This document shows positions 19,974-35,816 of a stretch of DNA of 64,000 bases, in pieces. Under the pieces are notes generated by a model. It saw only the letters and a program-made list of their open reading frames with translations. It did not search any database and was not told where the DNA came from. Source of the DNA: Roseibacillus ishigakijimensis (GTDB lineage: Bacteria > Verrucomicrobiota > Verrucomicrobiia > Verrucomicrobiales > Akkermansiaceae); contig NZ_JAENIO010000016.1 of assembly GCF_016595415.1 (NCBI RefSeq), forward strand, positions 1-64,000, written 5' to 3'. The position numbers and the translations under genes are program-made. Within the stretch, counting starts at the first letter, position 1, and each line of letters starts with the position of its first letter.

Positions 19974-19991
19974 TTGTGACTAAATCGTCAC
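19974..19991 (+). promoter_or_regulatory. Putative Pho box upstream of the TonB-type operon
   Basis: TTGTGAC-TAAA-TCGTCAC: two 7-base half-sites with an 11-base period, as in PhoB boxes (consensus CTGTCAT-N4-CTGTCAY). Seen the other way it is an inverted repeat GTGAC-N6-GTCAC. A third TTGTGAC at 20002-20008 could act as a -35 element, with TATTTC at 20025-20030 as -10 (16-base spacer), which would start transcription almost at the first ATG (20040). The same motif occurs twice before pstS and its divergent porin. Confidence 0.62.
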
Positions 19992-20039
19992 CTGAGCGCG
20001 ATTGTGACTTGCCTCGCTCTTCCCTATTTCCGCCGCTCA

Positions 20040-20849
20040 ATGCACACCATCTTTCCATCCGGCATGGCTCTCACCCTCTTGCTGGCGGGCATTCTACCCG
20101 CCGCCGCGCAATCGGTGGCGGAGCAACATGTGGAACTGCGGGCGGTCATTTCCCAATGGATGGGGACCGTGGAGAAGACTCACGAATTGGAGTCGGATTG
20201 GACGACCCGGCAACAGGAGCTGAAGAATTCCATCGAGGGCATGGAGGTGATGCTGCAGCAGGCCGAAGCCGACATTGCCAAAATGGAAGCTCGCCTGGCA
20301 CTGGCGGATGAGTCTTCCCAAGAAAAGCTGGCCCAGCAGAAAGAATTCAACGAGGCCCGCGAAGCCCTCCGCGCCGGTCTTCCCGCTGTCGAGGCCGCGG
20401 TGGCCCAGGTGGTCCCTTTGTTGCCGGAGTTTTATGTCAGTGGTGAGAGTGGCTCGCCCAAGCTGAAGGCAGCCATTGAATCGTTGGCCGAGCACCGCAC
20501 CGCCGAGCCGGATGAGAAGGAGAAGCTGGGATTGAATTCCCGCATCCAGCCCTTGGTCCATATTCTCACCGAGGGCGAGCGCTTCCACAGCAAGCTGTGG
20601 GCGGTCAGCCATCCCCTGCGGGTGGGCGAGGTGGAGAAACAAATGAACGTGCTCTATTTCGGTCTCGCAGTGGCCTACGCGGTGGATGATGCGGCTGAAG
20701 TGGCTCTCGTGGGCCGGAGCTCTGACGAGGGCTGGACCTTCGCGAAACTCAGTGGGGAAGGCCTTCCCGAGCGCGTGCAGGCCCTTTACCAGGCTGCCGA
20801 TCAATCTGGCGAATCCCAAATGGTGACCCTGCCTCTCACGGTCGACTGA
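20040..20849 (+). CDS. DUF3450-like coiled-coil exported protein of a TonB2-type system
   Basis: A 269-residue protein with a signal peptide (MALTLLLAGILPAAAQ) and a long coiled coil at about residues 30-110. After that, VEKQMNVLYFGLAVAYAVDDAAEVALVGRSSDEGW resembles the conserved C-terminal half of DUF3450 proteins. In gammaproteobacteria DUF3450 genes sit directly upstream of ttpC-exbB-exbD-tonB clusters, the position seen here. A periplasmic adaptor role for the energy transducer is inferred; no activity is known. The ATG at 20040 was preferred because an earlier frame opening lies inside the presumed promoter; another ATG at 20064 would also leave a signal peptide. It is the first gene of the operon behind a Pho-box-like site. 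Confidence 0.62.
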   Translation: MHTIFPSGMALTLLLAGILPAAAQSVAEQHVELRAVISQWMGTVEKTHELESDWTTRQQELKNSIEGMEVMLQQAEADIAKMEARLALADESSQEKLAQQKEFNEAREALRAGLPAVEAAVAQVVPLLPEFYVSGESGSPKLKAAIESLAEHRTAEPDEKEKLGLNSRIQPLVHILTEGERFHSKLWAVSHPLRVGEVEKQMNVLYFGLAVAYAVDDAAEVALVGRSSDEGWTFAKLSGEGLPERVQALYQAADQSGESQMVTLPLTVD

Positions 20850-20891
20850 GCAAGGCCCGCTAGTTTTCTAAATCGGCTAATTGAGAATTTC

Positions 20892-22340
20892 ATGACCAAG
20901 TTTTCCTTCTCTCTCTTCGTTTTCACCGTCTCGGCGGGCGCTGCTCTGGGGCAGGTCTCTTCCGGGGACGCGCTCGTCAAGGCGCGGCAAAATCTGGAAT
21001 CCGCTCAGCAGGGCTACCTGCGCATTGAGCAAGCCATCGCGGCGGAAGAAAGTCCCCTCGTCATCGAGGCGCAGACCTTGGAGGCGGAGCATCGTCAAAA
21101 GGAAAAAGAGCTGCGGGAGCTGACTGCGCAGGAACTACAGATTGCGGGCAAGGAAAAGCGCTTGGACGATGAGCTGGCCAGTCGGCGGGGTGAATTTGAC
21201 TACACCCGCAATGTCCTCGATGGCTACACCAAAGGCTTTCTCAATCGCGTGCACCCGGCCGAAGTGCAGTTGTATCAGGATGCGATCGAAGCGGCTCGCC
21301 AAGAGGCGAGTCATGAAAAGGACCTGGCGGCGGAAATGGTAGCCCGGCTGGAAGCTCTCCAGGTGGGCGCGCAGCGGCTGCAAGAGGCTGCCGGGGGGCG
21401 TCGCTTCGTCGGTCGGGGATTGGTGGGTTCTGATTTCGTTAATGGCGACTTCGCGGTGGTGGGGCCAGTGGGCTATTTTGCGGCCAAGGGCAAGGATTTG
21501 GCCGGGTTGACAGGATTGGGTAGCAATGGGTTTCCCCAGATTTCTCTTTTTGAAGGGGAGGAGGCCGTGCAGATGCGGACTCTCGTGGAGAGCGGGTCGG
21601 GGGACCTGCCCATCGATGCCACCAATGGGAAGGCCCTGAAGGCGAAGAATGAGACCCCGAGCCTGGGTGACCGGGCTAAAGACGGAGGCGTGGTGGGCTA
21701 TGCCATCTTGGCTCTCGGCGGAGTGGCCTTGCTCATCGCTCTCTTCAAGCTCATCGAGATCATCAATTTCACCATCCCTTCGCGAGCCAAGGTCAACGAG
21801 ATAGTCGACGCTCTCTTGGCGAGGGAGGTGGAGAGCGCCAAAGCCCAAGCTGAGGCGATCCGGGGGCTTTCCGGCAAAATGGTGGAAGCCGGAGTGGAGA
21901 ATTTTTATGGCAAGCGGAGGATTTTGGAAGATGCCCTTTTGGAGAAACTCAGTGCGGTGCAACCCCGCTTGGAGCGTTTCCTGCCTTTTCTGGCCCTCGT
22001 GGCGGCGGCGGCACCCATGATGGGGCTGCTGGGAACTGTCCTCGGCATCATGCAGACCTTCGATGCCATGGCGATTCATGGCACGGGCAATGCCCAGAAC
22101 TTTTCCAAAGGGATCGGGGCCGCCCTCGTGACCACGGCGGAGGGCCTTGTGGTTGCCATTCCCATCATCATCATCCACGGCATGCTCAAGAGCTATGCCC
22201 GCTCCCGCTTTGACACCGCGCAGGGGGTGGCTTTGGCGATTTTGAACGGAACCACAGAGCTCGAAGAGAAAGAGCCCCGGGATCCGGAAAATGGTCCCGG
22301 CGGTGAGGAGGATTTCGAGGAGAAGGAAATGGCTGCGTAG
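20892..22340 (+). CDS. Long ExbB/TolQ-family protein, TtpC-like
   Basis: A 482-residue proton-channel family protein roughly twice the usual ExbB length. Signal peptide over residues 1-21 (MTKFSFSLFVFTVSAGAALG), then a periplasmic coiled coil (about 25-155). The first ExbB-type membrane helix is at about 270-297 (GYAILALGGVALLIALFKLI), and the two-helix proton-channel region is at about 365-440 (LVAAAAPMMGLLGTVLGIM and GIGAALVTTAEGLVVAIPII). This layout matches TtpC, the fourth essential component of Vibrio TonB2 systems, which has an extra periplasmic domain. It is followed 11 bases later by a normal-size ExbB, so the pair is not a simple fusion. The tail is acidic (EEKEPRDPENGPGGEEDFEE). 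Confidence 0.82.
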   Translation: MTKFSFSLFVFTVSAGAALGQVSSGDALVKARQNLESAQQGYLRIEQAIAAEESPLVIEAQTLEAEHRQKEKELRELTAQELQIAGKEKRLDDELASRRGEFDYTRNVLDGYTKGFLNRVHPAEVQLYQDAIEAARQEASHEKDLAAEMVARLEALQVGAQRLQEAAGGRRFVGRGLVGSDFVNGDFAVVGPVGYFAAKGKDLAGLTGLGSNGFPQISLFEGEEAVQMRTLVESGSGDLPIDATNGKALKAKNETPSLGDRAKDGGVVGYAILALGGVALLIALFKLIEIINFTIPSRAKVNEIVDALLAREVESAKAQAEAIRGLSGKMVEAGVENFYGKRRILEDALLEKLSAVQPRLERFLPFLALVAAAAPMMGLLGTVLGIMQTFDAMAIHGTGNAQNFSKGIGAALVTTAEGLVVAIPIIIIHGMLKSYARSRFDTAQGVALAILNGTTELEEKEPRDPENGPGGEEDFEEKEMAA

Positions 22341-22351
22341 GGCGAACGACG

Positions 22352-22951
22352 ATGGGAGCGAATTTTCAGGAAGTCATCGACATTTTTCGGGAGGGCGGGC
22401 TGGTGATGGCCGCGCTCGCAGGGGTCGCGCTCTTGCTTTACATCACCTCCATCGCGGCTGTGATCTACGTGCAGAAAGGAAATCTCACCACTGCCCGGCG
22501 CGAAGAATGGGAGAGGTGGATCGCCTGTCCCGAAGAAGCGGAGGGCCGGGTGGGGGAGATCATCCGCTATGCGGTTCATGGTCCCAAGATTTCGGTGAAG
22601 CGGGTGCAGCGGCGGTTCGATGAGATGTTCGATGTTCTGGTGCGATCGATTGACCAGCGCTTGATCATCATCACCACCTTGGTGGCAGCCGCACCCATGA
22701 CGGGGCTGCTGGGCACGGTGATGGGTATGCTCGCGATGTTCGACGGCCTGGGAGCCGGGGGGGGCAAGCAAGGGATGGAGATGATTTCCGAGGGCATGAA
22801 GGAGGCTCTATTCACGACCCTGACCGGGCTGGTGGTGGCCTTGCCAGGAATGTTCTTTGCCCTGGTGGTGAGGGAAAAGCGCAATCAGATCGCGACCGTG
22901 CTCAGCCAATTGCAGGCCGCCGTGGTCACCACAAAATTTAAATCTCTCTGA
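22352..22951 (+). CDS. exbB: ExbB proton-channel protein
   Basis: A 199-residue inner-membrane protein of normal ExbB/TolQ size. Membrane helices are at about residues 13-38 (GGLVMAALAGVALLLYITSI), 108-130 (VAAAPMTGLLGTVMGMLAMF) and 153-180 (ALFTTLTGLVVALPGMFFALV), separated by a cytoplasmic loop. The APMTGLLGTV and LTGLVVALP motifs are diagnostic. ExbB and ExbD form the proton-driven motor that energises TonB. The start lies 11 bases after the TtpC-like gene, and the stop is followed 1 base later by exbD, so the genes are translationally linked. Confidence 0.9.
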   Translation: MGANFQEVIDIFREGGLVMAALAGVALLLYITSIAAVIYVQKGNLTTARREEWERWIACPEEAEGRVGEIIRYAVHGPKISVKRVQRRFDEMFDVLVRSIDQRLIIITTLVAAAPMTGLLGTVMGMLAMFDGLGAGGGKQGMEMISEGMKEALFTTLTGLVVALPGMFFALVVREKRNQIATVLSQLQAAVVTTKFKSL

Positions 22952-22952
22952 A

Positions 22953-23375
22953 ATGTTACGCGATGGTCCATCCCTGGCAGGCGGCGACGAAGAGGTCAAG
23001 CCCGACCTCTCTCCCATGATCGACTGTGTTTTCATCCTGTTGATCTTCTTCATCGTCACCACTGTGTTCGTCAAAGAGCCCAAGGTGCCGGTCAATGACC
23101 CCGATGCCCAGAGTGCGGAGCGGCTGGAGAAGAACAGCATCATTTTCGCCGTCACGGCGGACAACAAGGTTTTCTATGATGGGCAGAGCATAGGCTTGGC
23201 CGGAGTGCAGCAGGTGGTCACGCCTTTGCTCCTGGAGAAGTCGGACCCAGCGGAGGCCCACGTCATCATCAAGGGCGACGCGGTCGCGCACGCCGGACTG
23301 GTGGACGACGTCGGCAAGGAGTGCCTTGAGGCCGGGGTGGTGAAGCACCGGATCACTATTTCCACTGAAAGCTGA
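22953..23375 (+). CDS. exbD: ExbD/TolR family protein (first copy)
   Basis: A 140-residue protein with a short cytoplasmic start, one membrane helix at about 22-44 (SPMIDCVFILLIFFIVTTVF) holding the conserved proton-relay Asp, and a periplasmic ExbD/TolR domain. It works with ExbB to convert proton flow into TonB movement. The gene ends in TGATG, sharing one base with the second exbD. The two copies share the membrane helix closely but diverge in the periplasmic part. Confidence 0.9.
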   Translation: MLRDGPSLAGGDEEVKPDLSPMIDCVFILLIFFIVTTVFVKEPKVPVNDPDAQSAERLEKNSIIFAVTADNKVFYDGQSIGLAGVQQVVTPLLLEKSDPAEAHVIIKGDAVAHAGLVDDVGKECLEAGVVKHRITISTES

Positions 23376-23788
23376 TGTTTGGAAGAGGTCGACTGGGCTC
23401 AGGCAGCGAGGAGGGTGATCCGGAACCGGATTTGTCGCCTATGATCGACTGTGTCTTTATTCTGCTCATTTTCTTCATTGTGACGGCGGTTTTCGTGGAA
23501 GAGGACGGCGTGCCCTTGCCCTTGCCGGAGGATTCGGCGGCGGTCTCTGCCGTGCAGGAAAACAGCACCGTGGTGATCACGGTGGCCCAAGACAGTTCCC
23601 TGGGCCATGATGGCAAGGCCATCGCCATGGACACGGTGGGGACGCTGGTGCGCAACGCCATTTCGCAGGACGAGGAGACGCCCATCATCATTCAGGCCCA
23701 TCCGCAGGCTCCCCATGGGGTGCGCACCCGGGTCTATGATGAAGTGCGGCAGGCCGGAGGAGAGAAGGTGACCTTTACCCAAGGATAA
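23375..23788 (+). CDS. ExbD/TolR family protein (second copy)
   Basis: A 137-residue ExbD homologue directly after the first, with the same DLSPMIDCVFILLIFFIVT helix (about residues 18-36), then an acidic linker and a different periplasmic domain (AISQDEETPIIIQAHPQAPHG). Two adjacent exbD genes may give an ExbD heterodimer: the ExbD dimer inside the ExbB pentamer is normally made of identical chains. It overlaps the previous stop by one base and ends 4 bases before tonB. Confidence 0.88.
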   Translation: MFGRGRLGSGSEEGDPEPDLSPMIDCVFILLIFFIVTAVFVEEDGVPLPLPEDSAAVSAVQENSTVVITVAQDSSLGHDGKAIAMDTVGTLVRNAISQDEETPIIIQAHPQAPHGVRTRVYDEVRQAGGEKVTFTQG

Positions 23789-23792
23789 GACG

Positions 23793-24464
23793 ATGAGCCG
23801 ACTCGCCAGCCGCCATGTTTACCAGCCGCCCAGGGGAAACCGCCCCCTGAATATCGCTGCGGCCATCGTGGGTGGCCTCGTGTTCACCTTTCTCGTCTTT
23901 TACGTGATCCCGCTGATGCAAAAATTAGAGGGGAAGAAGGAGGAAGTCACCACCACCATGGAGGCGGCCTATGTGGAAGAGGCGCCGGAAGACTTCGAGC
24001 TGGAAGAGGAGCCGCCTCCCCCGGAGGAGGAGCCCGAGCCCGAGCCTGAGCTGAACCTGGAGACCGAGCCCATGGACATCGCCGACATCCCCTTCGACCT
24101 CGGTGCCGGAGTGGGTGGTAAAATGATGCTGAACTTGAAGCCCAATTTTGAAGTGGCCGACGATCCCAATGCTCTGGGGGGAGGCGATCTGGATACCCCG
24201 CCCCGACCCACCAGCAAGCCCCCACCGCGTTACCCGGGCGAGATGCTCAAGAAGAAGCAGGGTGGCAAGGTGCTCGTGCTGGTCACCGTCGATGAGCGCG
24301 GGGTGGTCACCAATGCTTCCGTCAAAGAATCCTCCGGCTTCCAGGCCTTGGACCAGGCGGCCCTCAATGCGGCCAAGCGCTGGAAATTCAAGCCGGGAAT
24401 CAAAGGCGGGCGCAAGGCGGTGATGACGGCCACCATTCCTTTCAATTTTCGGGTGAAGACATAA
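23793..24464 (+). CDS. tonB: Energy transducer TonB
   Basis: A 223-residue TonB. One membrane helix at about residues 21-44 (AAAIVGGLVFTFLVFYVI), a periplasmic Glu/Pro spacer (EEPPPPEEEPEPEPEL, about 70-88) in place of the usual Lys-Pro part, and a C-terminal TonB domain (about 140-223): RYPGEMLKKKQGGKVLVLV, VTNASVKESSGFQALDQAAL and AAKRWKFKPGI. It reaches across the periplasm to act on outer-membrane transporters using energy from ExbB/ExbD. The stop overlaps the start of the TPR gene by one base. No TonB-dependent receptor gene is present in the window, although the operon does carry a porin. Confidence 0.93.
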   Translation: MSRLASRHVYQPPRGNRPLNIAAAIVGGLVFTFLVFYVIPLMQKLEGKKEEVTTTMEAAYVEEAPEDFELEEEPPPPEEEPEPEPELNLETEPMDIADIPFDLGAGVGGKMMLNLKPNFEVADDPNALGGGDLDTPPRPTSKPPPRYPGEMLKKKQGGKVLVLVTVDERGVVTNASVKESSGFQALDQAALNAAKRWKFKPGIKGGRKAVMTATIPFNFRVKT

Positions 24465-25978
24465 TGAGAACGATACTTCTAGCAGCACTATTGGCGGGGC
24501 CCCTCGCCGCCGACCCCCTGCGGGTTCCCAAAGAGCAGTTTCGCAGCCCCGAGTTCCTCAAGGGCTTTGTGGGGGCGTATGGCTTTCTCTCGCCCGTGGA
24601 ACCCAAGGTGGACCGGGAGGAGAACGAGTTGCTGGCCGATTTGGCGGGACTGTTTTCCGATGCCCGTTTCCGGGAGGCTGAGGCTCGCATCGTGGATTTC
24701 ATCAAAAAGCGGAAAAATCCGGTGGAGGAAGGAGTCGCGCCCAAGGAGGTGAGCCCCGCGCTCATTTTCCAATTGGCCCAGCTCTATTTCATGAACGACC
24801 GCACGGAGGATGCCGAGCGGGCTTACAAGCTTGCCATCAAGGGGCATCCGGACTTCCGGCGGGCGCACAAGTATCTCGCCCTTCTCTACGCGGGACAGGA
24901 TCGGGTCGCCGAGGCCCTTCCCCATCTCAAGAAGGCCATCCAGTTGGGAGAAGCGGATCAGCTGGTTTATGGCTTGCTGGGCTATGCCTACACCCAGGAC
25001 AACAAACCTCTGGCGGCGGAAGCAGCTTACCGGCAGGCTTATCTCCTGAATCCCGATGAGACCCAATGGAGTTCGGGGCTGACGCTCTCGCTCTATCAGC
25101 AGGAGAAGTGGCCCGAGGCCGCCGCCATGCTGGGAGACCTTTTGGCGGTGAATCCGGAAGCGAGTGATTTCTGGAAAATGCAGGCCAATTGCTACTTGAA
25201 TATGGAGCAGCCCCTGCGTGCGGCGGAGAACTTTGAGGTCATGCGCTTGAAGGACCTGGCGGACGAGAGCACCCTCAACACCTTGGGGGACATCTACACA
25301 GACCAGAAGAAGCCGGTGCTGGCCTTGGGGGCTTATCTCGCCGCGCTCGCTAAGAGCGAAAGTCTTGATGTCGAGCGAAGCCTGCGCACGGCGAACATTC
25401 TCGCTGACTACGGCGCCCCCCGGGAGGCGGCCAAATACATTACCGCCGTGCGCGAGAAAAAAGGCGGGCAGCTCACCCGCAGCCAGCAAATCAGCTTTTA
25501 CCTCACCGAGGTGAAAATCGCCAAGAGTGAGGGTGACCCTCTGCAAGTGGGACGCTTGGTGCAGCAGATCCTGGAGCTGGACCCCTCCAACGGAGAAGCC
25601 TTGGTGGAAAACGGCATTTACCATGAGCAACTGGCAGAGAACGCTGCGGATGAAGAGGAAGCCATCCGCTTGATCGGTCTTGCCCGGGCCCAGTTCAAGC
25701 TGGCCATGAATAGCGCCGATGAGCAGACCCAGTATCTGGCCAACCGGAGCTTCGGGCAAATGCTGGTCCGGCAGCGCGAGTTCGTGGAAGCGATGCCCTA
25801 CATCGAGCGGGCTCTGGCGCTGAAGCCCAGCGACGGGCTCTCCCGCTTTGCCAAACAGGTCTCCATCTTTGCCGAGCGCCAGAAGGAAACCCGGGCTCGG
25901 GAGGAGGCCGAGCAAGCGGCCTTGCGAGCGGAGCAGGAGAAGAAGCGGGAAGCGGAAGCAAATGACGACGAAGACTAA
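24464..25978 (+). CDS. TPR-repeat exported protein of the TonB operon
   Basis: A 504-residue protein with a short signal peptide (MRTILLAALLAGPLAA). At least six TPR-like helical hairpins run from about residue 95 to 470, for example IFQLAQLYFMNDRTEDAERAY, RAHKYLALLYAGQDRVAEAL and LVYGLLGYAYTQDNKPLAAE. The last about 35 residues are a charged coiled coil (ERQKETRAREEAEQAAL). TPR proteins are also found at the end of TonB2-type loci in gammaproteobacteria, where they are thought to contact TonB or the outer-membrane partner. Its start overlaps tonB by one base and its stop lies just before the porin ATG. Confidence 0.8.
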   Translation: MRTILLAALLAGPLAADPLRVPKEQFRSPEFLKGFVGAYGFLSPVEPKVDREENELLADLAGLFSDARFREAEARIVDFIKKRKNPVEEGVAPKEVSPALIFQLAQLYFMNDRTEDAERAYKLAIKGHPDFRRAHKYLALLYAGQDRVAEALPHLKKAIQLGEADQLVYGLLGYAYTQDNKPLAAEAAYRQAYLLNPDETQWSSGLTLSLYQQEKWPEAAAMLGDLLAVNPEASDFWKMQANCYLNMEQPLRAAENFEVMRLKDLADESTLNTLGDIYTDQKKPVLALGAYLAALAKSESLDVERSLRTANILADYGAPREAAKYITAVREKKGGQLTRSQQISFYLTEVKIAKSEGDPLQVGRLVQQILELDPSNGEALVENGIYHEQLAENAADEEEAIRLIGLARAQFKLAMNSADEQTQYLANRSFGQMLVRQREFVEAMPYIERALALKPSDGLSRFAKQVSIFAERQKETRAREEAEQAALRAEQEKKREAEANDDED

Positions 25979-25979
25979 A

Positions 25980-27296
25980 ATGAGAACGAATTTTCTAAGA
26001 ACGGCCCGCATGGGGGTGGCTCTCGGCGGGGGACTGGCGGGCAGCCTTTCCGCTAATGAAGCCCTCGACCTGCTAGAAGGCAAAATCACGGCTGAAGAAG
26101 CGACCGTGGACGACATTCTGGCTGCGTCGCGGGCAGAGGAAGTCGGGGTGGGAGAAGCGGCCGAGAAGGAGGTCTTGCGAGACAACCGGGACTACTCTTC
26201 CCGCTGGAAAAATCGCCTCGCACCCACCGCGCTGGTTTACGATAATCCCAATGGACGGGTGGTGCAGGCTGTCGCCATCGATGGCCTGGCAGAGTGGGGG
26301 ATGGCCCAGGGCAGTCTTGAGCCCAAGGCGGGAAAAAGCGAGGACCTGGATGAGAGCCAGCTGAAGCGGGTGCGCCTCGGCGGGATGATGCGGGCCTTTT
26401 ACAACACCGATTTGGAAGGACGCGTGGTTGCCGACGGAGAAGGTTATCAGGGCGTCGATACCCTGAAGGCGACCGTGCAAGTGAACGAAGCTCTTCAAGT
26501 CGAGGGGGGAAAATTCCGTCCCCCCTTCAGTCAGGAATACAAGCAGGACCCGGCCGTGCGGATTGCACCCCGTCTTTCTCCGCTGGTGGAGCAGGTGGCC
26601 CCGGCCAATACCTTGGGCACCCGGGTCAGCGTGGTTGATGGCCCGTGGGAACTCGGCTTGGGCTGGTTCAGCGGGGCCCGCGACCGGAACCTGCCAGACT
26701 TCGAGGGCGGCGGCTTCGTGCTTGCCAATATGAGCTACACCTTTGACCGGGACAAAGTGGTGGCCGCCGGTGAGGAAGAAGGGGAGGCTCCTCCGGGGCA
26801 TCAGCGCTGGCATTTGGACTACCTATATAACACCAGCTCCGAGCGGGACGGCAGCGTGCCCCTGGGCTATCGCCATCTTCTCTCCACCGGGATCGAGGTG
26901 AGCAGCGGGGACTTCGACTTTGCCGGGGACTTCATCCTGGCCAATGGGGATATTGCCACCGCCTGGGGGATGACCCTCACCGGGCGCTACTGGCTCTTCG
27001 AGGATGCGCTGCGCTTTGTCGGTCGCTACAGCTATGCCGATACTGATGATGATGGCGCCCTTTCCATTGGCATCGGGGTGGCCGATGCCCGGGGCGACGC
27101 CACGCAACCGCTGGAAGGCTATTCCAAGGTTCTCGCCGCCGATGAGCTTCACTCCTTCTATGCCGGTCTCGATTGGCACTTTATCCAGGACTATCTCATT
27201 CTCTCTACCGGGCTGGAGTATCAGCTCCTCAAGAATGAGAGTGACGGCGACTTCAACAATCTGCTCTGGCACACTGGGGGCCGGGTGGCCTTCTAA
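25980..27296 (+). CDS. OprO/OprP-like porin encoded in the TonB operon
   Basis: A 438-residue outer-membrane protein. The N-terminus (MRTNFLRTARMGVALGGG, cleavage near Ser-Ala-Asn) is a signal peptide. The mature chain has the alternating barrel pattern and segments typical of the phosphate-selective porin O/P family: LQVEGGKFRPPFSQEYKQD, GTRVSVVDGPWELGLGWFSG, FYAGLDWHFIQDYLILSTG and a C-terminal GGRVAF with terminal Phe. Substrate is inferred from family and from the flanking Pho-box and pst genes. The ATG at 25980 follows the TPR stop by one base and starts the signal peptide; the longer open frame upstream is a shadow of the TPR gene. Confidence 0.75.
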   Translation: MRTNFLRTARMGVALGGGLAGSLSANEALDLLEGKITAEEATVDDILAASRAEEVGVGEAAEKEVLRDNRDYSSRWKNRLAPTALVYDNPNGRVVQAVAIDGLAEWGMAQGSLEPKAGKSEDLDESQLKRVRLGGMMRAFYNTDLEGRVVADGEGYQGVDTLKATVQVNEALQVEGGKFRPPFSQEYKQDPAVRIAPRLSPLVEQVAPANTLGTRVSVVDGPWELGLGWFSGARDRNLPDFEGGGFVLANMSYTFDRDKVVAAGEEEGEAPPGHQRWHLDYLYNTSSERDGSVPLGYRHLLSTGIEVSSGDFDFAGDFILANGDIATAWGMTLTGRYWLFEDALRFVGRYSYADTDDDGALSIGIGVADARGDATQPLEGYSKVLAADELHSFYAGLDWHFIQDYLILSTGLEYQLLKNESDGDFNNLLWHTGGRVAF

Positions 27297-27335
27297 TCCC
27301 AGCTCGTTGACAATCTATCAAATCACTTGAATACT

Positions 27336-27953
27336 ATGAAATTTGTAGCACTTCTGGCAGCCTTGGGACTTTCCAGCCTGGGTTCTGCCTTCGGGCTCGG
27401 CATTGATGTCGAGAGTCTGGGGACCAAGCTGAATGGCTGGTCGAAAAAGCGGACGGCGACCTATACCGTCGACAATCACACCTACCGCACCCACGTGCCG
27501 ACGGTGACGCGAAATCTTGATGGCGGCATTTTCGTCTCCATGCGGGTGGAGCATATCTCGGCCTTGCGGGCCGATGCGGTGGCCTATCTGGAGTTGACTT
27601 TCACCCCTGCCGGTTACGTGGGGGCTTCCCAGATTCGACTCACCATGAATGGCAATCGTTATGATACCGGTCAGGTTCTGCGCACCGAGGAGCAAGCGTT
27701 GCCGGAGGGCGAGATCGGCTCGGTGGATTGGCGATCCACCCACATGAAGATGGTTCTGGAGCTTTTCCGAAAGCTGGATGGCGAGTTCGCCAAGGCTGAA
27801 AAGGAGGAAGAAGCAGGGACGCGCGATCTCTGGGGACGCTTCCGGGGAAGCGAGCTGGAAGAAGCCGATGTCGCGGCTGCCTTGCGCCACAATCTCAACC
27901 TTCTTCTCGCTAACGTCGGTTACGGATTTTCCAGCGAGTATTCCGGTAAATAA
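27336..27953 (+). CDS. Small exported protein, end of the TonB operon
   Basis: A 205-residue protein that I do not recognise. It has a clean signal peptide (MKFVALLAALGLSSLGSAFG) and a soluble domain with beta-strand character (ATYTVDNHTYRTHVPTV, AYLELTFTPAGYVGASQIRL), then a charged helical stretch and a C-terminal segment NLLLANVGYGFSS. It may be a periplasmic partner of the system. It lies 39 bases after the porin with no terminator between, so it probably belongs to the same transcript. A TTG three codons upstream is a less likely start. Confidence 0.65.
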   Translation: MKFVALLAALGLSSLGSAFGLGIDVESLGTKLNGWSKKRTATYTVDNHTYRTHVPTVTRNLDGGIFVSMRVEHISALRADAVAYLELTFTPAGYVGASQIRLTMNGNRYDTGQVLRTEEQALPEGEIGSVDWRSTHMKMVLELFRKLDGEFAKAEKEEEAGTRDLWGRFRGSELEEADVAAALRHNLNLLLANVGYGFSSEYSGK

Positions 27954-28016: not shown

Positions 28017-28050
28017 AGGTCGCGGGATCGAATCTCCCGCGACCTTTTTT
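28017..28050 (+). terminator. Intrinsic terminator of the TonB operon
   Basis: A perfect 11-bp stem (28017-28027 with 28035-28045) closes a 7-base loop and is followed by six T residues. It closes the 8-kb unit that began behind the Pho-box-like site at 19974. Confidence 0.92.
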
Positions 28051-28180: not shown

Positions 28181-29428
28181 TTAGAAGTAGCTGCGGAAGG
28201 CGAGCCACAAGGTCAGGGCGTCGACATCACCGGCAGGGGTGCTCAGGTCGTCGTATTCCACCCCGGCCATGATCTTGGCATTGTGGTCGCAGAGGTAGTA
28301 GTTGAGACCACCATAAATGCTGTGGTGCTCGTCACCCCGGCCCCCATTGATGGCAGCGTCGGTGTCGTCATTGCGACGCAGGTAGCGGCTATTCACCCGG
28401 ATTCCTTCGTCGGCGGAGGAGCCGGCATACTGGTAGCGGGCCACTGCTTGCAGGCGATCCTCCAGTAACCAGTAGTGGGGCATGATCACTACACCCCAGA
28501 AGTCGTCCTGGCGGTCGGGGTTATTCTGGCCCATGCCGGAGCTGCCATTGTCTCCGTAGATGAAGTCAGTCACCAGACCCCAGGGGCCGGATTCATAAAC
28601 CGCGCTCACGGAAGTGGCCCACTGGTAGCCCCAGAGGCTGTCATCCTCGGCGTCGGAATCGTTGTAGACAAAGTCCACCAGCACGCTGAAGTCGTCGCTG
28701 ACCTGATAGCCCAGCGAGGCCTGATAGACGAGGGCTTCTTCCCATCCTGCCACGAACTCGTCTTCTGGCTCGGTGGAGTAGACGCCAAGGAGCATGTCCC
28801 AGGGTCCCTGGCTGCCTGCCAGCTTCACCCCGGTGGGACGCAATGCGCCGTAGATCTTGTTGGAAATGGCGGAGCGCTCCACGGTGATGATCTTCTTGGA
28901 GGACTCGTTCGCTTCGTGGGAAATGGCGAACTTGTGGCGACCGTAGCTGAGGTGCAGGCTGTCCATGCCGAGGCCAAAGGCTTTCGCCAAATCAACCCCG
29001 AGGAGAGCTTCGTCAAAGCCCTCGTAACCCCAGTCCAAGTCGTCCCCACTGGGGCGGCCATCGGAAACCAGGTTGATGTTGCCCTTGAAGTCAAAGTAGT
29101 TGAGGAACTTGCCCTTCGCGCCCACCCGCACGCGGCGGAATTCGTTGTAGCTGTCGTTGAAATCATCGCCGTCGGCGTCTGTTCCATCGATCCAAGCGGT
29201 TTGGAACTGGAAGCGGCCGAAGACCGAGAAGTCCTGCACGAGCGGATTGAGCCAGTCGCTGGGCGTTTTTCCCACCGTCTGCAGGGCGTCGCACCAACTG
29301 GCGGGACTTTCGGCCACCGGGGTCTCCGGAAGGGGAGCCGGGGCAAGGGGGGCTTCGCCAGCCCAGGCCAACCCGCCGCAAGCGAGGGCAAGGCAATTGA
29401 GAGGAAGGATCGTGTTCTTCATGTGCAT
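28181..29428 (-). CDS. OprO/OprP-like porin divergent from pstS
   Basis: A 415-residue outer-membrane protein with a signal peptide (MKNTILPLNCLALACGGLAWAG). Typical porin O/P features follow: FSVFGRFQFQTAWIDGTD, NEFRRVRVGAKGKFLNYFDF, LSYGRHKFAISHEANESSKK, then barrel strands and a C-terminal LTLWLAFRSYF. The conserved FKGNINL/GRHK pattern near residues 130-190 is the most diagnostic part. OprP and OprO of Pseudomonas conduct phosphate and polyphosphate and are induced by phosphate starvation. The gene is transcribed away from pstS and shares an intergenic region holding two Pho-box-like sites. An alternative ATG two codons later exists. Confidence 0.82.
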   Translation of the reverse strand: MHMKNTILPLNCLALACGGLAWAGEAPLAPAPLPETPVAESPASWCDALQTVGKTPSDWLNPLVQDFSVFGRFQFQTAWIDGTDADGDDFNDSYNEFRRVRVGAKGKFLNYFDFKGNINLVSDGRPSGDDLDWGYEGFDEALLGVDLAKAFGLGMDSLHLSYGRHKFAISHEANESSKKIITVERSAISNKIYGALRPTGVKLAGSQGPWDMLLGVYSTEPEDEFVAGWEEALVYQASLGYQVSDDFSVLVDFVYNDSDAEDDSLWGYQWATSVSAVYESGPWGLVTDFIYGDNGSSGMGQNNPDRQDDFWGVVIMPHYWLLEDRLQAVARYQYAGSSADEGIRVNSRYLRRNDDTDAAINGGRGDEHHSIYGGLNYYLCDHNAKIMAGVEYDDLSTPAGDVDALTLWLAFRSYF

Positions 29429-29489: not shown

Positions 29490-29507
29490 TTGTGACGAAA
29501 TTGTCAC
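29490..29507. promoter_or_regulatory. Putative Pho box, porin side of the divergent region
   Basis: TTGTGAC-GAAA-TTGTCAC, the same 7+4+7 design as at 19974, located 62 bases upstream of the minus-strand porin start. Because the motif is also an inverted repeat, it could serve either gene; position suggests the porin. Confidence 0.62.
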
Positions 29508-29553: not shown

Positions 29554-29571
29554 ATGTGACAAAATCGTCAC
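29554..29571. promoter_or_regulatory. Putative Pho box, pstS side of the divergent region
   Basis: ATGTGAC-AAAA-TCGTCAC, spaced 64 bases from the preceding site and 86 bases upstream of pstS. I could not assign a confident -10 element downstream. Confidence 0.62.
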
Positions 29572-29656
29572 TTAAAAGAGAGCGCGCCGACTGGCATTCT
29601 GTCCATGTTTGCGCCGTCCCAACCATCACCGGGAGGGCCGAATTCCAAGTAACACT

Positions 29657-30466
29657 ATGAAAGTAAAAACTCTAATCGCCACTCTGGCCTCGGGTCTCAT
29701 CCTCGGCGGCACCGCTTTGGGTCAGTCCAAGGTGGTCATCAAAGGTTCCGATACTCTGGGTGCCAAGATGGTTCCCCAGTTGACTGCGGTCTACAAAGCC
29801 AAAGGCAATGCAGTCGATTTCGAGATTGCGGCCGAGGGTTCCTCCACTGCTTTCACTTCCTTGCTGGAAGGCACTGCTGACATCGGAATGAGCTCCCGTG
29901 ACGCCAAGGAAGGAGAGAAAGACTCCTTCACTGCGAAAGGCAAAGAGCTCGTCGAGCACGTCGCCGGGATTGACATGATCGCGGTGGTGGTGAACGAAGC
30001 CAATTCCGTCAAGAACCTCACCAAAAAGCAGGTGGAAGGTATTTTTACTGGTGAAATCACCGACTGGAGTGAGCTCGGTGGCAAGAAAGGTGCCATCTCA
30101 GTCTACACCCGCAACACCTCTTCCGGAACTTACAAGAGCTTCCAGGAGTTGGCGATGAACAAGCGCGACTACGGGTCCTCCACCCAGAAAATGGCAGGCA
30201 ACGAAGCCATCGCTTCCGAAGTCGGTCGCAATCCCAATGGCATCGGTTACGTCGGTTTGGCTTACGCGGAAAATGAAGGTCTCGTGCCCGTGACGGTCGA
30301 TGGCAAAGGCCTGGAAAAGCCCTCCGAGTATCCTCTTTCCCGCAAGCTTTACTACTACACTGTTGGCGAGCCCAGCGGTGAAACTGCCAAGTTCCTCGAG
30401 TGGGCCATGACTGATGAGATCGCCAAGAAGGTGATCGAAAAAGTCGGTTTCGTGGCCGCTGAGTAA
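29657..30466 (+). CDS. pstS: Phosphate ABC transporter substrate-binding protein
   Basis: A 269-residue periplasmic binding protein with a signal peptide (MKVKTLIATLASGLILGGTALG). The phosphate-binding signatures of PstS are visible: KGSDTLGAKMVPQL, EGSSTAFTSLLEGTADIGMSSR and TRNTSSGTYKSFQELAM. It captures phosphate after it crosses the outer membrane and passes it to PstC/PstA. The ATG at 29657 was chosen because it starts the signal peptide; the 16 upstream codons are not signal-like. It heads pstS-pstC-pstA-pstB-phoU behind two Pho-box-like sites. Confidence 0.95.
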   Translation: MKVKTLIATLASGLILGGTALGQSKVVIKGSDTLGAKMVPQLTAVYKAKGNAVDFEIAAEGSSTAFTSLLEGTADIGMSSRDAKEGEKDSFTAKGKELVEHVAGIDMIAVVVNEANSVKNLTKKQVEGIFTGEITDWSELGGKKGAISVYTRNTSSGTYKSFQELAMNKRDYGSSTQKMAGNEAIASEVGRNPNGIGYVGLAYAENEGLVPVTVDGKGLEKPSEYPLSRKLYYYTVGEPSGETAKFLEWAMTDEIAKKVIEKVGFVAAE

Positions 30467-30491
30467 GCTTCCACCCAAGAAATTTTTCTCC

Positions 30492-30519
30492 ACGCCTCTC
30501 CTCCCCGGGGGAGGCGTTT
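30492..30519 (+). terminator. Intercistronic stem-loop between pstS and pstC
   Basis: ACGCCTC pairs with GAGGCGT around a C/G-rich centre that can extend the helix, followed by only TTTCT. A weak terminator or RNA-stabilising stem here would give more PstS than permease, a common arrangement for binding-protein genes. Confidence 0.55.
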
Positions 30520-30656
30520 CTATTGCCAAAGAGCTGATTCTTCTCCCTTTGGCGGGTGGTCGAGGATTCCCCAGGGAGGGCGCGATCGCTAAAAAATGAC
30601 CGGGTGGCCGTTCCCGGGTTGAACAAACGGCTCTGACAACCTAGCACAAGACTTCA

Positions 30657-32621
30657 ATGTCCGAACAATCCGCGCAGGGTGAGGCGAAAGCCTTCCGCAA
30701 GAAAGCAGGCTTCCGTTTCATGGGGCTGGGTCTGCAGGATATGATCCGCTACTTTTTCGGCGGCAATGCCATGGTGGCGATTATCGTCCTCTTGTTGATT
30801 TCCGCCTTTCTGGCAAAAGAAGCCTTTTTCTTTTTTCCCCGTCATTTGGAAGAATTGCGGGCCTATCGCGAGACTGGGCAAGAGTATGTCGGCTACATGG
30901 ATGCCGAGCTCAAGGCTCATCGCAAGATCACCTCCGCTGCCACCCAAGCTTACAATCTCCAACTGCGCAGTGTGGTGCGCGATGAACTCGCGCTTCTGGA
31001 AGTGGGTCGCGAGGTGAAGACCCTTCTGCGGGAAGAAGTCGAACGTGAGCGCGATGCCCTCGCGGCGGCCGAGGAGCAAGTCGGGGTGCTCGAATTTATC
31101 GGGGGTGAGGCCTATGAGGTGGCCAAGGCGGAGGTCGAGGAAAAGCGCCAGGCCTTGCAGGAAGCGGTGGCCCGGGCGGCTGGGGACCTGAGTGTGACGG
31201 ACCTGACATTCAGCGAAGTCACTCCCGAGGAAAAGCAGTTCAATCGCATCAAGCAAGCCATGGTGCGCGATCTGACGGGGGAGGATTCTCCCTGGCTCGC
31301 CGAGTTGGAAGCGCGTATTGCAGAAAAGCAGGCTGCCGCTGAAGCCGAGTATGAGCAATTCGGCACTGCCGTCACCGAGCTGGTGGCTGCCCAAGCTCCG
31401 CTTGAGGAGTTGTGGAGCAAACTACGCACCATCACCTCCGAGAACCGCGACGAGGTGGAGAAAGCGCGCACCGCTCCCCGGCGCAAGAAGGCCCTCGAAG
31501 ATGGGGCCAAGCTCACTGATGACCCCGAACGCAAGGCCGAGATGCTGGCGCAAGCTGCCGAGGTCGATCTTTCCACCCCCGAGCCGGAGGAGATGACCCG
31601 GCCCGTCTATGACCACCGGGACGAGCACCAGGCCCTGCGCCAGGAGCTGCTTCAGACGACCCGGCGCTTGGTCAAAGCCATTCCAGACGAGGTTGCGGCC
31701 AAACAATCCAATGCCATTCTCGAAGACTTGCCCAAGGTGCGTGAGGGGTTTGAAAAGCAGTTCAAGCGCCTGGGCAAAAAAGCGGAGGAGTGGTCCCACG
31801 ACGAGAAAATTGGCATGGGTGGTTCCATTCTGACCTTTTTCCTCGGCACCGAGTGGGTGACCAATTCCAGCTGGAATGATGTCTACGGCCTCCTGCCGCT
31901 TTTCTCCGGCTCCTGCATTATCGCGATCATCGCCATTGTGATTGCCGTGCCCTTTTCCGTCGCGTCGGCGATCTACGTCAATCAGATTGCCAGCCCCCTG
32001 GAGCAGAATCTCATCAAGCCCACCATCGAATTTATCCAGGCCATTCCTTCCATCGTGCTGGGCTTCTTCGGCATTGTCGTGCTGGGTGATTTTCTCCGGG
32101 AGATGAGCCAGTGGGAGTTTCTGGCCTGGCTTCCGGGCTTTCCCATGCAGGAGCGCTTGAACGCCCTCAATGCCGGACTTCTGCTGGCCTTCATGTCCAT
32201 TCCGACCATTTTCACCCTGGCGGAGGATGCTCTCAACAACGTGCCCAAGGCCTATCGGGATGCCTCTCTGGCTCTCGGCAGCACCCGCTTGCAAACCATT
32301 TTCAAGGTCGTGGTGCCCACCGCTCTCTCCGGGATCGTGGCGGCCGTTCTCCTCGGCTTCGGCCGCATCATTGGCGAGACCATGGTGGTTCTCCTCGTGG
32401 CGGGAAATAAGATTGCCATGCCTGAGTGGGGAGAGGGCCTGGGTGTCCTCACCGACCCCACCCACACCATGACCGGTATCATCGCGCAGGAGACCGGAGA
32501 GGTGGAGCAGGGTTCCCTGCACTGGCGCGCCCTCTTCATGGTCGGGATGGTGCTCTTCACCATCTCGCTAGTCTTGAACTCCCTTTCCCAGGAAATCCTC
32601 AAACGTTTCGGTAACAAATGA
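30657..32621 (+). CDS. pstC: Phosphate ABC transporter permease PstC, long form
   Basis: A 654-residue inner-membrane permease. The first membrane helix is at about residues 38-56 ([20 protein letters not shown]). Residues about 60-390 form a charged, coiled-coil-rich domain outside the membrane. The usual PstC transport core follows (about 400-650) with [34 protein letters not shown] and the EAA-like loop [20 protein letters not shown]. Ordinary PstC has about 320 residues; Pseudomonas-type PstC is also long, so this is a known variant. It overlaps pstA by four bases (ATGA). Confidence 0.93.
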
Positions 32622-34264
32622 CCACGGACGACAACAATTCGCAAAGCGACTCTGCGAACTCGAATCCCTTCGCGCATCACGAGAGTTCGCTGCAAAAGGT
32701 GGAAAAACTGCAGCGGGTCCTTCTCTGGTCCGCCACCTGGTTCGTCCTCCTCATCGCGGGCATCATCTTCGGGACCATTCTCATGCGCGGGGCTCCCGTC
32801 CTGGCCAAGTATGGCACCAGCTTTCTGACCAATAGTCCGGAAACCCTCTTTGTGCTCAAAATCAACGAGGGCACGACCTTGGAGCTTCCCCCCAAGGATT
32901 ACGAGCTCGTCGAACGCTCCAATCCCCAGCTTGACTTTGCTGGGGTGACTCCTTTGGAGGTGCCGCGGGAACGGGTTTCCTTTGTCGTTCCCCCGGGCCA
33001 TCACCGCCTCTCTCTGGGCAAACTGCGGGACCTGGAGATGGCGACTGGCAAGACCTTTGCTTTCGAGAAAAAACATGAAGCGGGCGAGGTGACCGTGGCG
33101 GTCGACAAAGAGGTGGTAGGCTTGATGGACAAAGGCGTCTTCGAGGAATTTACCGCTGGCTTGGAAGGAATGGCCTTGCGGGACCAGCGCCCGGTGACTG
33201 TGACCGATCAACGCATCCGCTTCACCTTACAAGAGCGGGGGCAGGTCGAGATGCCTTCCACCATCGCTTTCAAAATCAAGGAACTGAACCCGGAGGCCCT
33301 CAAGGGCGTGCAGGAGGAGACTCATTCCTACTCGGCGGGCGGGGTGCTTGGCCCTCTGGCTGGCACCGCTCTGCTGGTCATCATCTGTATGGTGGTGGCT
33401 CTCTTCGTGGGGGTTTCGGCCAGTGTTTATTTGAGCGAATATGCCAAGCAGGGCTCGATGATGAATTCCATCCGCCTCGCCATTCTCAACCTCGCCGGGG
33501 TTCCTTCCATCGTGTTCGGCCTCTTTGGCCTCATGCTCTTCGTTTTCCTCGCTCCCAAGGTGACCAATGTGGTGGCCGTGCGGGATTCCGTGCGCGTGCC
33601 TCTCTGGCCTTCCTTCTCGGAGCCTCCCGTCCGCCAGCAGGTGGAGCGCGAAATCCATATCGCAAAAGGCACCCCAATCAAGGAGGCTGTCCGGGAGGCC
33701 AACGCTACCCGTTCCAAAGCGGTCTGGAACGGCCGCTGGTATCTCAGCTTCGAGGGGTGGGGGACTTGTATGCTCGCCGGGGGCTTCACTCTCGCGGTCA
33801 TGGTTTTGCCCGTCATCATCACCGCTTGTGAAGAGTCGCTGCGGGCGGTGCCCAAAGGATACCGGGAGGCCTCCCTCGCCCTGGGGGCCACCAAGTGGGA
33901 GTCCATCCGCACGGCGGTGCTCCCCTATGCCTTGCCGGGAATTCTCACCGCCTCCGTGCTCGGGATCACCCGGGTAGCGGGGGAGACCGCACCCATCATG
34001 TTCACTGCAGCCTTGGCGGAACGCTCCCTCCTTCCCTGGGAGGGCATCAATCGCTCCGGCTTGGGCTGGCTTTTCGACTTCCTTTCGCAATCGGTGCAGG
34101 CCCTGCCTTACCACATCTACACCGTTGCGGCGCGCATTCCGCAATCGGAATACACCCGCCCCATGCAGGATGGCGCGGTCCTCGTTTTCATGCTATTCGT
34201 GATGTCCTTCGCCGGTCTTTCGGTGTGGTTGCGCATCCGCATGCGGAGTAAATTGAAATGGTAA
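32618..34264 (+). CDS. pstA: Phosphate ABC transporter permease PstA, long form
   Basis: A 548-residue permease. A hydrophilic Asn/Ser-rich start precedes membrane helix 1 (about residues 36-56, [20 protein letters not shown]), then a roughly 180-residue extracytoplasmic insertion rich in beta-strands. The core begins near residue 243 ([20 protein letters not shown]) and carries [18 protein letters not shown] and the ATPase-contact loop [21 protein letters not shown] smaller loop of about 60 residues sits inside the core (about 320-380). Together with PstC it forms the phosphate channel. It overlaps both pstC and pstB, indicating translational coupling. Confidence 0.93.
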
Positions 34265-35103
34265 TCAAGATGAATCAAGATACTGCAACTTTGGGTGAAG
34301 AGACGCCCGCCAAACCCGCGGTGGGCGAGATTGAAGGACGCCGCACCATGATCGAGTGCACGGACGTCAGCTTCAGCTACGATGGTGGCAAGACCAACAC
34401 TCTCGACCACATCTCGCTCGATATCCCTGAGAAAAAGGTGACCGCCTTCATCGGGCCTTCCGGTTGTGGCAAGTCTACCTTTCTGCGCTGTTTCAACCGC
34501 ATGAACGACCTCATTGATACCGCCCGCATCACCAGTGGCGCTATCAAAATCATGGGGCAGGATATCCATGCTCCTGAAGTGGACGTCATCGAGTTGCGCA
34601 AGCAAGTGGGCATGGTCTTCCAGAAATACAATCCCTTTCCCAAGTCCATCTTCGAGAACGTGTCCTATGGGCCGCGCATCCAGGGCAATAACGACAAAAA
34701 GAAGCTGGAGGAAATCGTGGAGAAAAGTCTTCGGGGAGCCGCGCTCTGGGATGAGGTCAAGGACCGGCTTCACAGCAGTGCCTTTGGCCTCTCCGGCGGG
34801 CAGCAGCAGCGCCTGTGCATCGCCCGGGCCATCGCCGTGCAACCACGGGTCATTCTGATGGACGAGCCTTGTTCGGCCCTCGATCCCATTGCCACCGCCA
34901 AGGTGGAGGAGCTCATCACCGAATTGCGGGAAAAATACACCATCGTGATCGTGACCCACAGCATGCAACAGGCTTCACGAATCTCCGACAACACCGCCTT
35001 TTTCTATCTGGGCAAATTGATCGAATACGATGCCACTTCCACTTTGTTCAGCACGCCCACCCAGAAGCAGACAGAAGATTACATCAGTGGACGCTTCGGT
35101 TAA
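34258..35103 (+). CDS. pstB: Phosphate ABC transporter ATP-binding protein
   Basis: A 281-residue ATPase with Walker [11 protein letters not shown] (about residues 65-74), the PstB-specific FNRMNDLI segment, the signature [14 protein letters not shown] (about 179-192), Walker [14 protein letters not shown] (about 200-212) and the switch [14 protein letters not shown] hydrolysis powers phosphate import through PstC/PstA. The gene begins seven bases inside the end of pstA; a second ATG four codons later would also work. The N-terminal 25 residues are longer than usual. Confidence 0.97.
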
Positions 35104-35150
35104 TGCTAGACAGGCGAACATTATTTTTATTAGGTTAGGGGTTTTCCCCC

Positions 35151-35816
35151 ATGACGACAACGACTCAACGCAAATCATCCATGCCCGGTAAACACATTTT
35201 GGCCAGTTTCGACGAAGCTCTCGTGGCTTTGAAAGAAGACGTCCTCGAACTTGGCGTTCTCTGCCGCACCAATCTCAGTCACTCCGTCAATGCTCTTCTC
35301 AAGAGGGAGCTGGACCAGGTGGCCCGGGTGCTTTCCAATCAGGATGAGATGCAAAACCTGGCCCACCGGATTGATGAGGATGCCATGAATCTCATCGTGC
35401 GGTTCCATCCCGTGGCTTCCGATTTGCGCTTCGTGCTCAGCTCCATGAAGGTGGGGGCCAACCTGGAGCGCGTCTCCAATCACGTGGTCAAGATTGCCAA
35501 GCGCACGCCCAAGATTTTGGCCATCGGCGAAGTGGTGGAGGTCAATTTGCTGGAGCCTCTCTATCTCCGCTCGGACCAAGCTCTCGGGCAAGCCATTGTG
35601 GCTTATAGTGATAACAATCCCGACCTGGTGGCGGAGTTGAACGAAGATGATGACGAGATCGACAAGCTCTACAAAAAAGCGCGTCGCACCTTCACCTCGG
35701 CCATCGAGGATAATCCCGCCAATTACCGCGAACTGATTCATCTCATGTTCGTGGCCCGCTCCCTTGAACGCATCGGCGACCATGCGGTGCACATTGCCGA
35801 GAACTTGCTCGAATAG
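35151..35816 (+). CDS. phoU: Phosphate signalling protein PhoU
   Basis: A 221-residue, fully helical protein with two PhoU repeats, including the metal-binding EDAMNLIVRFHPVASDLRFVLSSMK (around residues 75-100) and the matching second-repeat motif LIHLMFVARSLERIGDHAVHIAENLLE at the C-terminus. PhoU links the Pst transporter to the PhoR kinase and turns the Pho response off when phosphate is plentiful. It lies 47 bases after pstB; a small GGGG/CCCC hairpin ends directly at the ATG. No phoB or phoR gene occurs in the window. Confidence 0.94.
   Translation: MTTTTQRKSSMPGKHILASFDEALVALKEDVLELGVLCRTNLSHSVNALLKRELDQVARVLSNQDEMQNLAHRIDEDAMNLIVRFHPVASDLRFVLSSMKVGANLERVSNHVVKIAKRTPKILAIGEVVEVNLLEPLYLRSDQALGQAIVAYSDNNPDLVAELNEDDDEIDKLYKKARRTFTSAIEDNPANYRELIHLMFVARSLERIGDHAVHIAENLLE

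Follow-up and report, generated by a model that had tools for sequence, protein, structure and literature searches.

TonB systems with the additional proteins TtpB, TtpC and TtpD have been described in the context of iron uptake. In Vibrio vulnificus, the TonB2 system requires TtpC2 along with two further essential components, the DUF3450 protein TtpB2 and the tetratricopeptide repeat (TPR) protein TtpD2; low iron induces this system, which functions in siderophore uptake (PMC6957404). Phosphate starvation, in turn, has been linked to pairs of a TonB-dependent receptor (TBDT) and an exoprotein that have neither a settled function nor an assigned energizer. In Caulobacter, ElpS (CC0170) is made under phosphate starvation and cc0170 (elpS)-cc0171 adjoin type II secretion system (T2SS) genes, whilst ElpS itself crosses the outer membrane independently of the T2SS by an unknown route (PMC2996285). 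In the PhoBR cluster of Flavobacterium johnsoniae, phosphate depletion raises a TBDT by 8.0 log2 and the lipoprotein FII, declared homologous to the Caulobacter protein, by 9.9 log2 (PMC8115612). Here we analyse a nine-gene TonB operon from Roseibacillus ishigakijimensis, located in a stretch of 64,000 nucleotides (the window; contig NZ_JAENIO010000016.1, positions 1 to 64,000), and propose from its sequence context that it would be a dedicated TtpB/C/D-type energizer of the Pho regulon, most likely powering an ElpS-type receptor.

Gene content and order of the operon

A first-pass annotation of the window had described a tightly spaced gene run ending in a terminator, and the coordinates, short gaps and Pfam matches confirm this description: nine genes lie on the forward strand at 20040-27953, with intergenic distances from ttpB to the last gene of 42, 11, 1, -1, 4, -1, 1 and 39 bp (all below 45 bp), and a strong terminator lies at their end. 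The single promoter-like site upstream of the last gene (27307-27335) does not rise above chance expectation. The operon, beginning with ttpB, and its flanking signals are as follows.

19976..19991, + strand: Pho-box-like operator GTGACTAAATCGTCAC, 48 bp upstream of the ttpB start
20040..20849, + strand: ttpB, exported DUF3450 protein, 269 aa (PF11932, 54.8 bits, E 1.1e-14, cut-off 32.6)
20892..22340, + strand: ttpC, long ExbB with a periplasmic N-terminal coiled-coil extension, 482 aa (PF01618, 96.5 bits, residues 328-438)
22352..22951, + strand: exbB (short), 199 aa (PF01618, MotA_ExbB, 77.1 bits)
22953..23375, + strand: exbD1, 140 aa (PF02472, 76.8 bits)
23375..23788, + strand: exbD2, 137 aa (PF02472, 85.7 bits)
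23793..24464, + strand: tonB, 223 aa, linker acidic and proline-rich (PF03544, TonB_C, 75.7 bits; TIGR01352, 77.4 bits)
24464..25978, + strand: ttpD, exported TPR protein, 504 aa (several TPR models; position as in Vibrio TtpD)
25980..27296, + strand: predicted OprO/OprP-like 16-strand porin with N-terminal extension, 438 aa (PF07396, 19.6 bits)
27336..27953, + strand: small exported protein, 205 aa, recurring beside the porin in several relatives; no Pfam or NCBIfam family matched
28017-28045, + strand: strong intrinsic terminator closing the operon (11-pair stem and T run)

A Vibrio campbellii locus has the order TBDT-TtpB-TtpC-ExbB-ExbD-TonB-TtpD, which the window operon follows from TtpB onwards, and verrucomicrobial protein profiles match the V. 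campbellii TtpC (177.6 bits), ExbD, TonB and TtpD. The operon also encodes both a long TtpC with an N-terminal periplasmic region and a separate short ExbB. On the basis of this gene set and order and of the profile matches, we assign the operon by sequence to the TtpB/C/D-type TonB2 energizers, of which it holds the complete set, extended by a second ExbD and by two genes appended at its end; the DUF3450 and TtpC identities given in the first-pass annotation were thus borne out, both by the PF11932 match and by the match to V. campbellii TtpC. Sequence searches of the PDB returned no credible relative of TtpB and matched TtpC only in its ExbB/TolQ domain. As a separate observation, TtpC in two loci (L151: 17652-19022 and L224: 6992-9127) has a periplasmic N-terminal part similar to DUF3450 (TtpB), which suggests a common ancestral domain in the two proteins. 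Compared to the Vibrio TonB2 system (PMC6957404), the window operon shares the protein set and gene order but differs in its second ExbD, in the appended porin and exported protein, in having a Pho-like box rather than iron control and in its predicted ElpS-type client pair.

The porin of the operon scores slightly below the PF07396 cut-off (20.9 bits), whilst its orthologues exceed it with 32.2 and 32.9 bits. Its AlphaFold model is a 16-strand barrel (predicted local distance difference test score, pLDDT, of 78), for which Foldseek returned OprP and OprO among the best matches (OprP 2o4v, E 2.5e-11); the porin is thus predicted to be OprO/OprP-like, as had been proposed from the sequence beforehand. 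We also considered the porin as the TonB client and rejected it: as it has no plug, such a role is unlikely.

A Pho-box-like motif ahead of the operon and at phosphate genes

In order to judge the motif ahead of ttpB, which is accompanied by an extra downstream GTGAC half-site at 20004, we scanned the whole 4.1-Mb genome with the pattern GTGACNAAATCGTCAC, allowing at most 2 mismatches and using the reversed pattern as control: 27 matches were obtained, against 3 for the control. Only three sites in the window have at most one mismatch, one at the ttp operon and two between a second porin gene and pstS:

28181..29428, - strand: second OprO/OprP-family porin, divergent from pstS (PF07396, 45.4 bits, over the cut-off)
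29492..29507, + strand: Pho-box-like site GTGACGAAATTGTCAC between the second porin and pstS, 1 mismatch
29556..29571, + strand: Pho-box-like site GTGACAAAATCGTCAC upstream of pstS, exact
29609..35816, + strand: pstS, pstC, pstA, pstB and phoU (PBP_like_2, BPD_transp_1 twice, ABC_tran, PhoU)

Further high-quality sites lie upstream of phoB, between the genes for PPK2 and a Na/Pi cotransporter and upstream of a DUF5690 transporter gene, and a site with 2 mismatches precedes the gene of a PhoD-like phosphatase. Given this enrichment and the placement at pstS, phoB, the PhoD phosphatase and PPK2/Na-Pi, the motif is very probably a Pho box, and the PhoB-box-like element noted in the first-pass annotation can be regarded as real. 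The local box has the form GTGAC-N6-GTCAC with 11-bp spacing; the Escherichia coli-type PhoB direct repeat, by comparison, gave almost nothing upstream of ttpB in Verrucomicrobiota. The PhoB protein of this genome has TIGR02154 as its top NCBIfam match with 232.8 bits, which is under the cut-off of 296.2. Most close relatives have similar boxes upstream of the ttp operon, and the regions upstream of their TBDT and ttpB genes gave 21 forward and 0 mirror matches, a count from overlapping loci that includes some sites twice. A search for Fur boxes found none ahead of the window operon and, for a second TtpBCD operon in this genome, no more than a weak upstream site. This second operon is located on contig C99 (L032: 3712-11875), adjoins a siderophore-like TBDT and carries no Pho-like box.

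The scan also revealed Pho-like boxes ahead of the DUF5690 membrane transporter (L028: 2576-3956, contig C142) and of a LolA-like protein (L027: 5921-6769, contig C115); both may thus belong to the phosphate regulon as new members. A box with 2 mismatches accompanies a 571-aa protein without a Pfam family (L035: 1985-3757, contig C129); a similar protein is encoded in another genus, two genes downstream of the porin gene (L090: 4921-6627). Amongst the pst products, both PstC (654 aa) and PstA (548 aa) are long proteins in which a large N-terminal region precedes the permease domain (30657-34264).

A receptor and beta-helix pair linked to the operon in relatives

In relatives from the same Verrucomicrobiota family, a large TBDT and a giant exported beta-helix protein are encoded directly upstream of ttpB. 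The full arrangement is found in a genome of the same genus (G241), with the order TBDT-helix-ttpB-ttpC-exbB-exbD-exbD-tonB-ttpD-porin-exported protein-porin-porin-pst and with boxes upstream of the TBDT gene, upstream of ttpB and near the helix gene. In the genome of the window, the receptor and helix genes lie on contig C103 (L128: 5987-14287), apart from the contig of the ttp operon, with boxes upstream of the helix gene (CTGACGAAAACGTCAC) and of the receptor gene (GTGACAATAATGTCAC); because of this separate location, the pair was invisible to the first-pass annotation. The C103 pair shares its neighbours, namely flavin reductase, MoeA and glycosidase-like genes, with the pair in G241 and therefore, judging from these genes, the cluster is split between the helix gene and ttpB. 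The receptor comprises CarboxypepD_reg, Plug and OMP_b-brl_3 domains. A genome search with PF00593 returned 11 receptors but did not recover this client candidate, since its barrel matches OMP_b-brl_3: it was the linkage in relatives that led to it. For the helix protein, a model of a relative's protein displays a beta-helix (pLDDT 63), and PDB sequence searches found no relative.

Apart from the window, the operon adjoins pst in one genome of the same genus (G241) and not in the other genera of the family. Judged by gene neighbourhoods, the conserved phosphate link thus consists of the Pho box and the receptor/helix pair, with direct pst adjacency limited to the genus; the conserved linkage anticipated in the first-pass annotation held for the box in most close relatives but not for pst.

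The pair on C103 and in the relatives resembles the phosphate-starvation pairs Fjoh_0545/0546 and CC0171/ElpS. As in Caulobacter (PMC2996285), a receptor and a large exoprotein are tied to phosphate starvation, although the Caulobacter pair lies beside T2SS genes and the verrucomicrobial pair beside a TtpBCD energizer. The F. johnsoniae cluster Fjoh_0542-0546 offers matching components, encoding an OprP-family porin, PhoR, PhoB, a TBDT (pf07715, pf13715, pf14905) and FII, but ExbB and ExbD are not mentioned in the text of that study and Fjoh_0542 itself was not induced (PMC8115612). PhoB-controlled TonB genes have a precedent in the Pseudomonas aeruginosa locus exbB2-exbD2-tonB4-PA0696, where, as in the window, a TonB system is followed by a putative porin; this locus lists no TtpB/C/D, is under the control of an extracytoplasmic function (ECF) sigma factor (sigmaVreI) and lies beside a two-partner secretion system (PMC7035377). 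Our literature search found no paper tying DUF3450 or TtpC to phosphate, and the TtpB/C/D type in a phosphate role and its link to an ElpS-type pair appear to be undescribed in the literature searched.

Spread of the pair across phyla

Scanning genome contigs with an alignment of the helix protein identified 564 relatives, and within the fetched flanks of the best 80 of these loci a receptor gene was present in 68, a TtpC gene in 19 and a PhoB-like or pst gene in 18. The receptor/helix pair recurs in many phyla, and phoBR or pst is frequently its neighbour: loci with phoB or pst neighbours include L189, L206, L175, L216 and L171, and the NCBIfam cut-off was passed by PhoB in L151, L175 and L189 and by PhoR in L151. 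In Alteromonas macleodii, plasmid pBGP9 (L223, 1970-18303) has the annotated order phoB-phoR-PstS-2-oxoglutarate (2OG) oxygenase-helix-TBDT-DUF3450-ExbB-ExbB-ExbD-TonB-TPR, in which the helix protein is annotated as hypothetical and was identified in this analysis. The link of TtpC with phosphate raised in the first-pass annotation is thus supported, but it is not peculiar to Verrucomicrobiota, as Alteromonadales have it too, with phoBR and a PstS-family gene belonging to the same cluster. We also note that the whole phoBR-PstS-helix-TBDT-TtpBCD cluster is borne on the plasmid and therefore may be transferred as a unit.

Amongst proteobacteria, canonical PhoB boxes ahead of the helix gene reached at least the 99th percentile in 9 regions, against 1.4 expected. 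Two alphaproteobacterial loci have the order helix-TBDT-gspD-gspE, with T2SS genes following the pair, which corresponds to the published layout around cc0170 (elpS)-cc0171 in Caulobacter (PMC2996285). Proteobacterial helix proteins carry a lipobox, verrucomicrobial ones an ordinary signal peptide. In a quick tree of TtpC, the window protein falls into a clade of 17 sequences with 98% support, all helix-linked, whilst the TtpC of the paralogous C99 operon falls elsewhere; the helix label changes 8 times on this tree, compared to a mean of 19 when shuffled.

Proposed function and alternatives

The observed basis of our proposal is gene content and order, the motif and its genome-wide targets, conserved linkage and phylogenetic clustering; from these we infer PhoB binding, the pairing of receptor and TonB, and the substrate, whilst low-phosphate induction would be expected by analogy with the published related pairs. 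TtpC, ExbB and the two ExbD proteins would form a proton-driven inner-membrane motor, the energy of which TonB, helped by periplasmic TtpB and TtpD, would hand to the outer membrane. The client would most likely be the TBDT encoded with the giant secreted beta-helix protein of the ElpS/FII type and not a siderophore receptor: the helix protein may bind or process a phosphorus-containing substrate extracellularly, and the receptor would import it. OprP-like porins would admit small phosphate species and PstSCAB would move phosphate over the inner membrane. As free phosphate passes porins, we consider an organic or polymeric phosphorus compound to be the probable substrate. The suggestion that a TtpC-type machine is tied to phosphate therefore stands through the box and the conserved linkage, although its outer-membrane partner, missing from the first-pass annotation, had to be found via relatives.

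Several observations weigh against this proposal. Other TtpBCD operons of the phylum adjoin different TBDTs or none, and the machine therefore has no inherent specificity for phosphate. Identity to the same-genus copies is only 31% for the C103 receptor and 38% for the helix protein, compared to 60-86% for neighbouring genes, pointing to fast evolution or replacement of the pair; with the pair also being on another contig, its pairing with this TonB is a step that we infer. The likeness of the helix protein to ElpS rests on gspD/gspE synteny in relatives together with the homology statement for FII (PMC8115612), and the close relatives L088 and L090 have no clear box upstream of ttpB.

The operon might also be a conventional TtpBCD-type TonB2 system dealing with iron or siderophores, its position next to pst being accidental. 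Such a reading would agree with the siderophore uptake and low-iron induction of the characterised Vibrio system (PMC6957404) and with the 11 PF00593 receptors of the genome. We regard this as improbable, given the Pho-like box and lack of a Fur-like site ahead of the operon and the linkage of the close TtpC clade to the ElpS-like pair; the C99 operon, beside its siderophore-like TBDT, is the better candidate for iron. We attach a similarly small probability to the energizer serving every TBDT of the cell and being merely boosted under phosphate starvation. TonB proteins are often promiscuous, and this genome encodes receptor and energizer at separate places; the closest relatives, however, hold the two together, and the genome possesses its own second energizer.

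With a similarly small probability, the TonB machine could instead drive export or surface display of the helix protein via its partner TBDT, like Oar-PopC in Myxococcus, with the phosphate role being indirect, through the exoprotein. In favour of this are the Oar-type N-terminal CarboxypepD_reg and Plug domains of the verrucomicrobial TBDT (PMC6434023), the unexplained T2SS-independent route of ElpS (PMC2996285) and the adjoining receptor and exoprotein genes in many phyla. Most TBDTs import, however, the Oar-type domain is absent from the receptors that proteobacteria encode in this pair, and ElpS production persisted in a cc0171 deletion, although that source is silent on surface display (PMC2996285). 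TtpBCD/TonB and an Oar-like receptor acting as a phosphate-starvation secretion device for an ElpS-like helix protein is likewise improbable; if true, it would explain the T2SS-independent surface delivery of ElpS.

Conclusions

By linkage, the present analysis joins a putative dedicated energizer to ElpS/FII-type pairs in Verrucomicrobiota and Alteromonadales. The proposal that this energizer would power an ElpS-type receptor offers a testable role both for the ElpS family and, beyond iron, for DUF3450, TtpC and TtpD. It also suggests an active, energy-driven scavenging of phosphorus over the outer membrane in marine bacteria.

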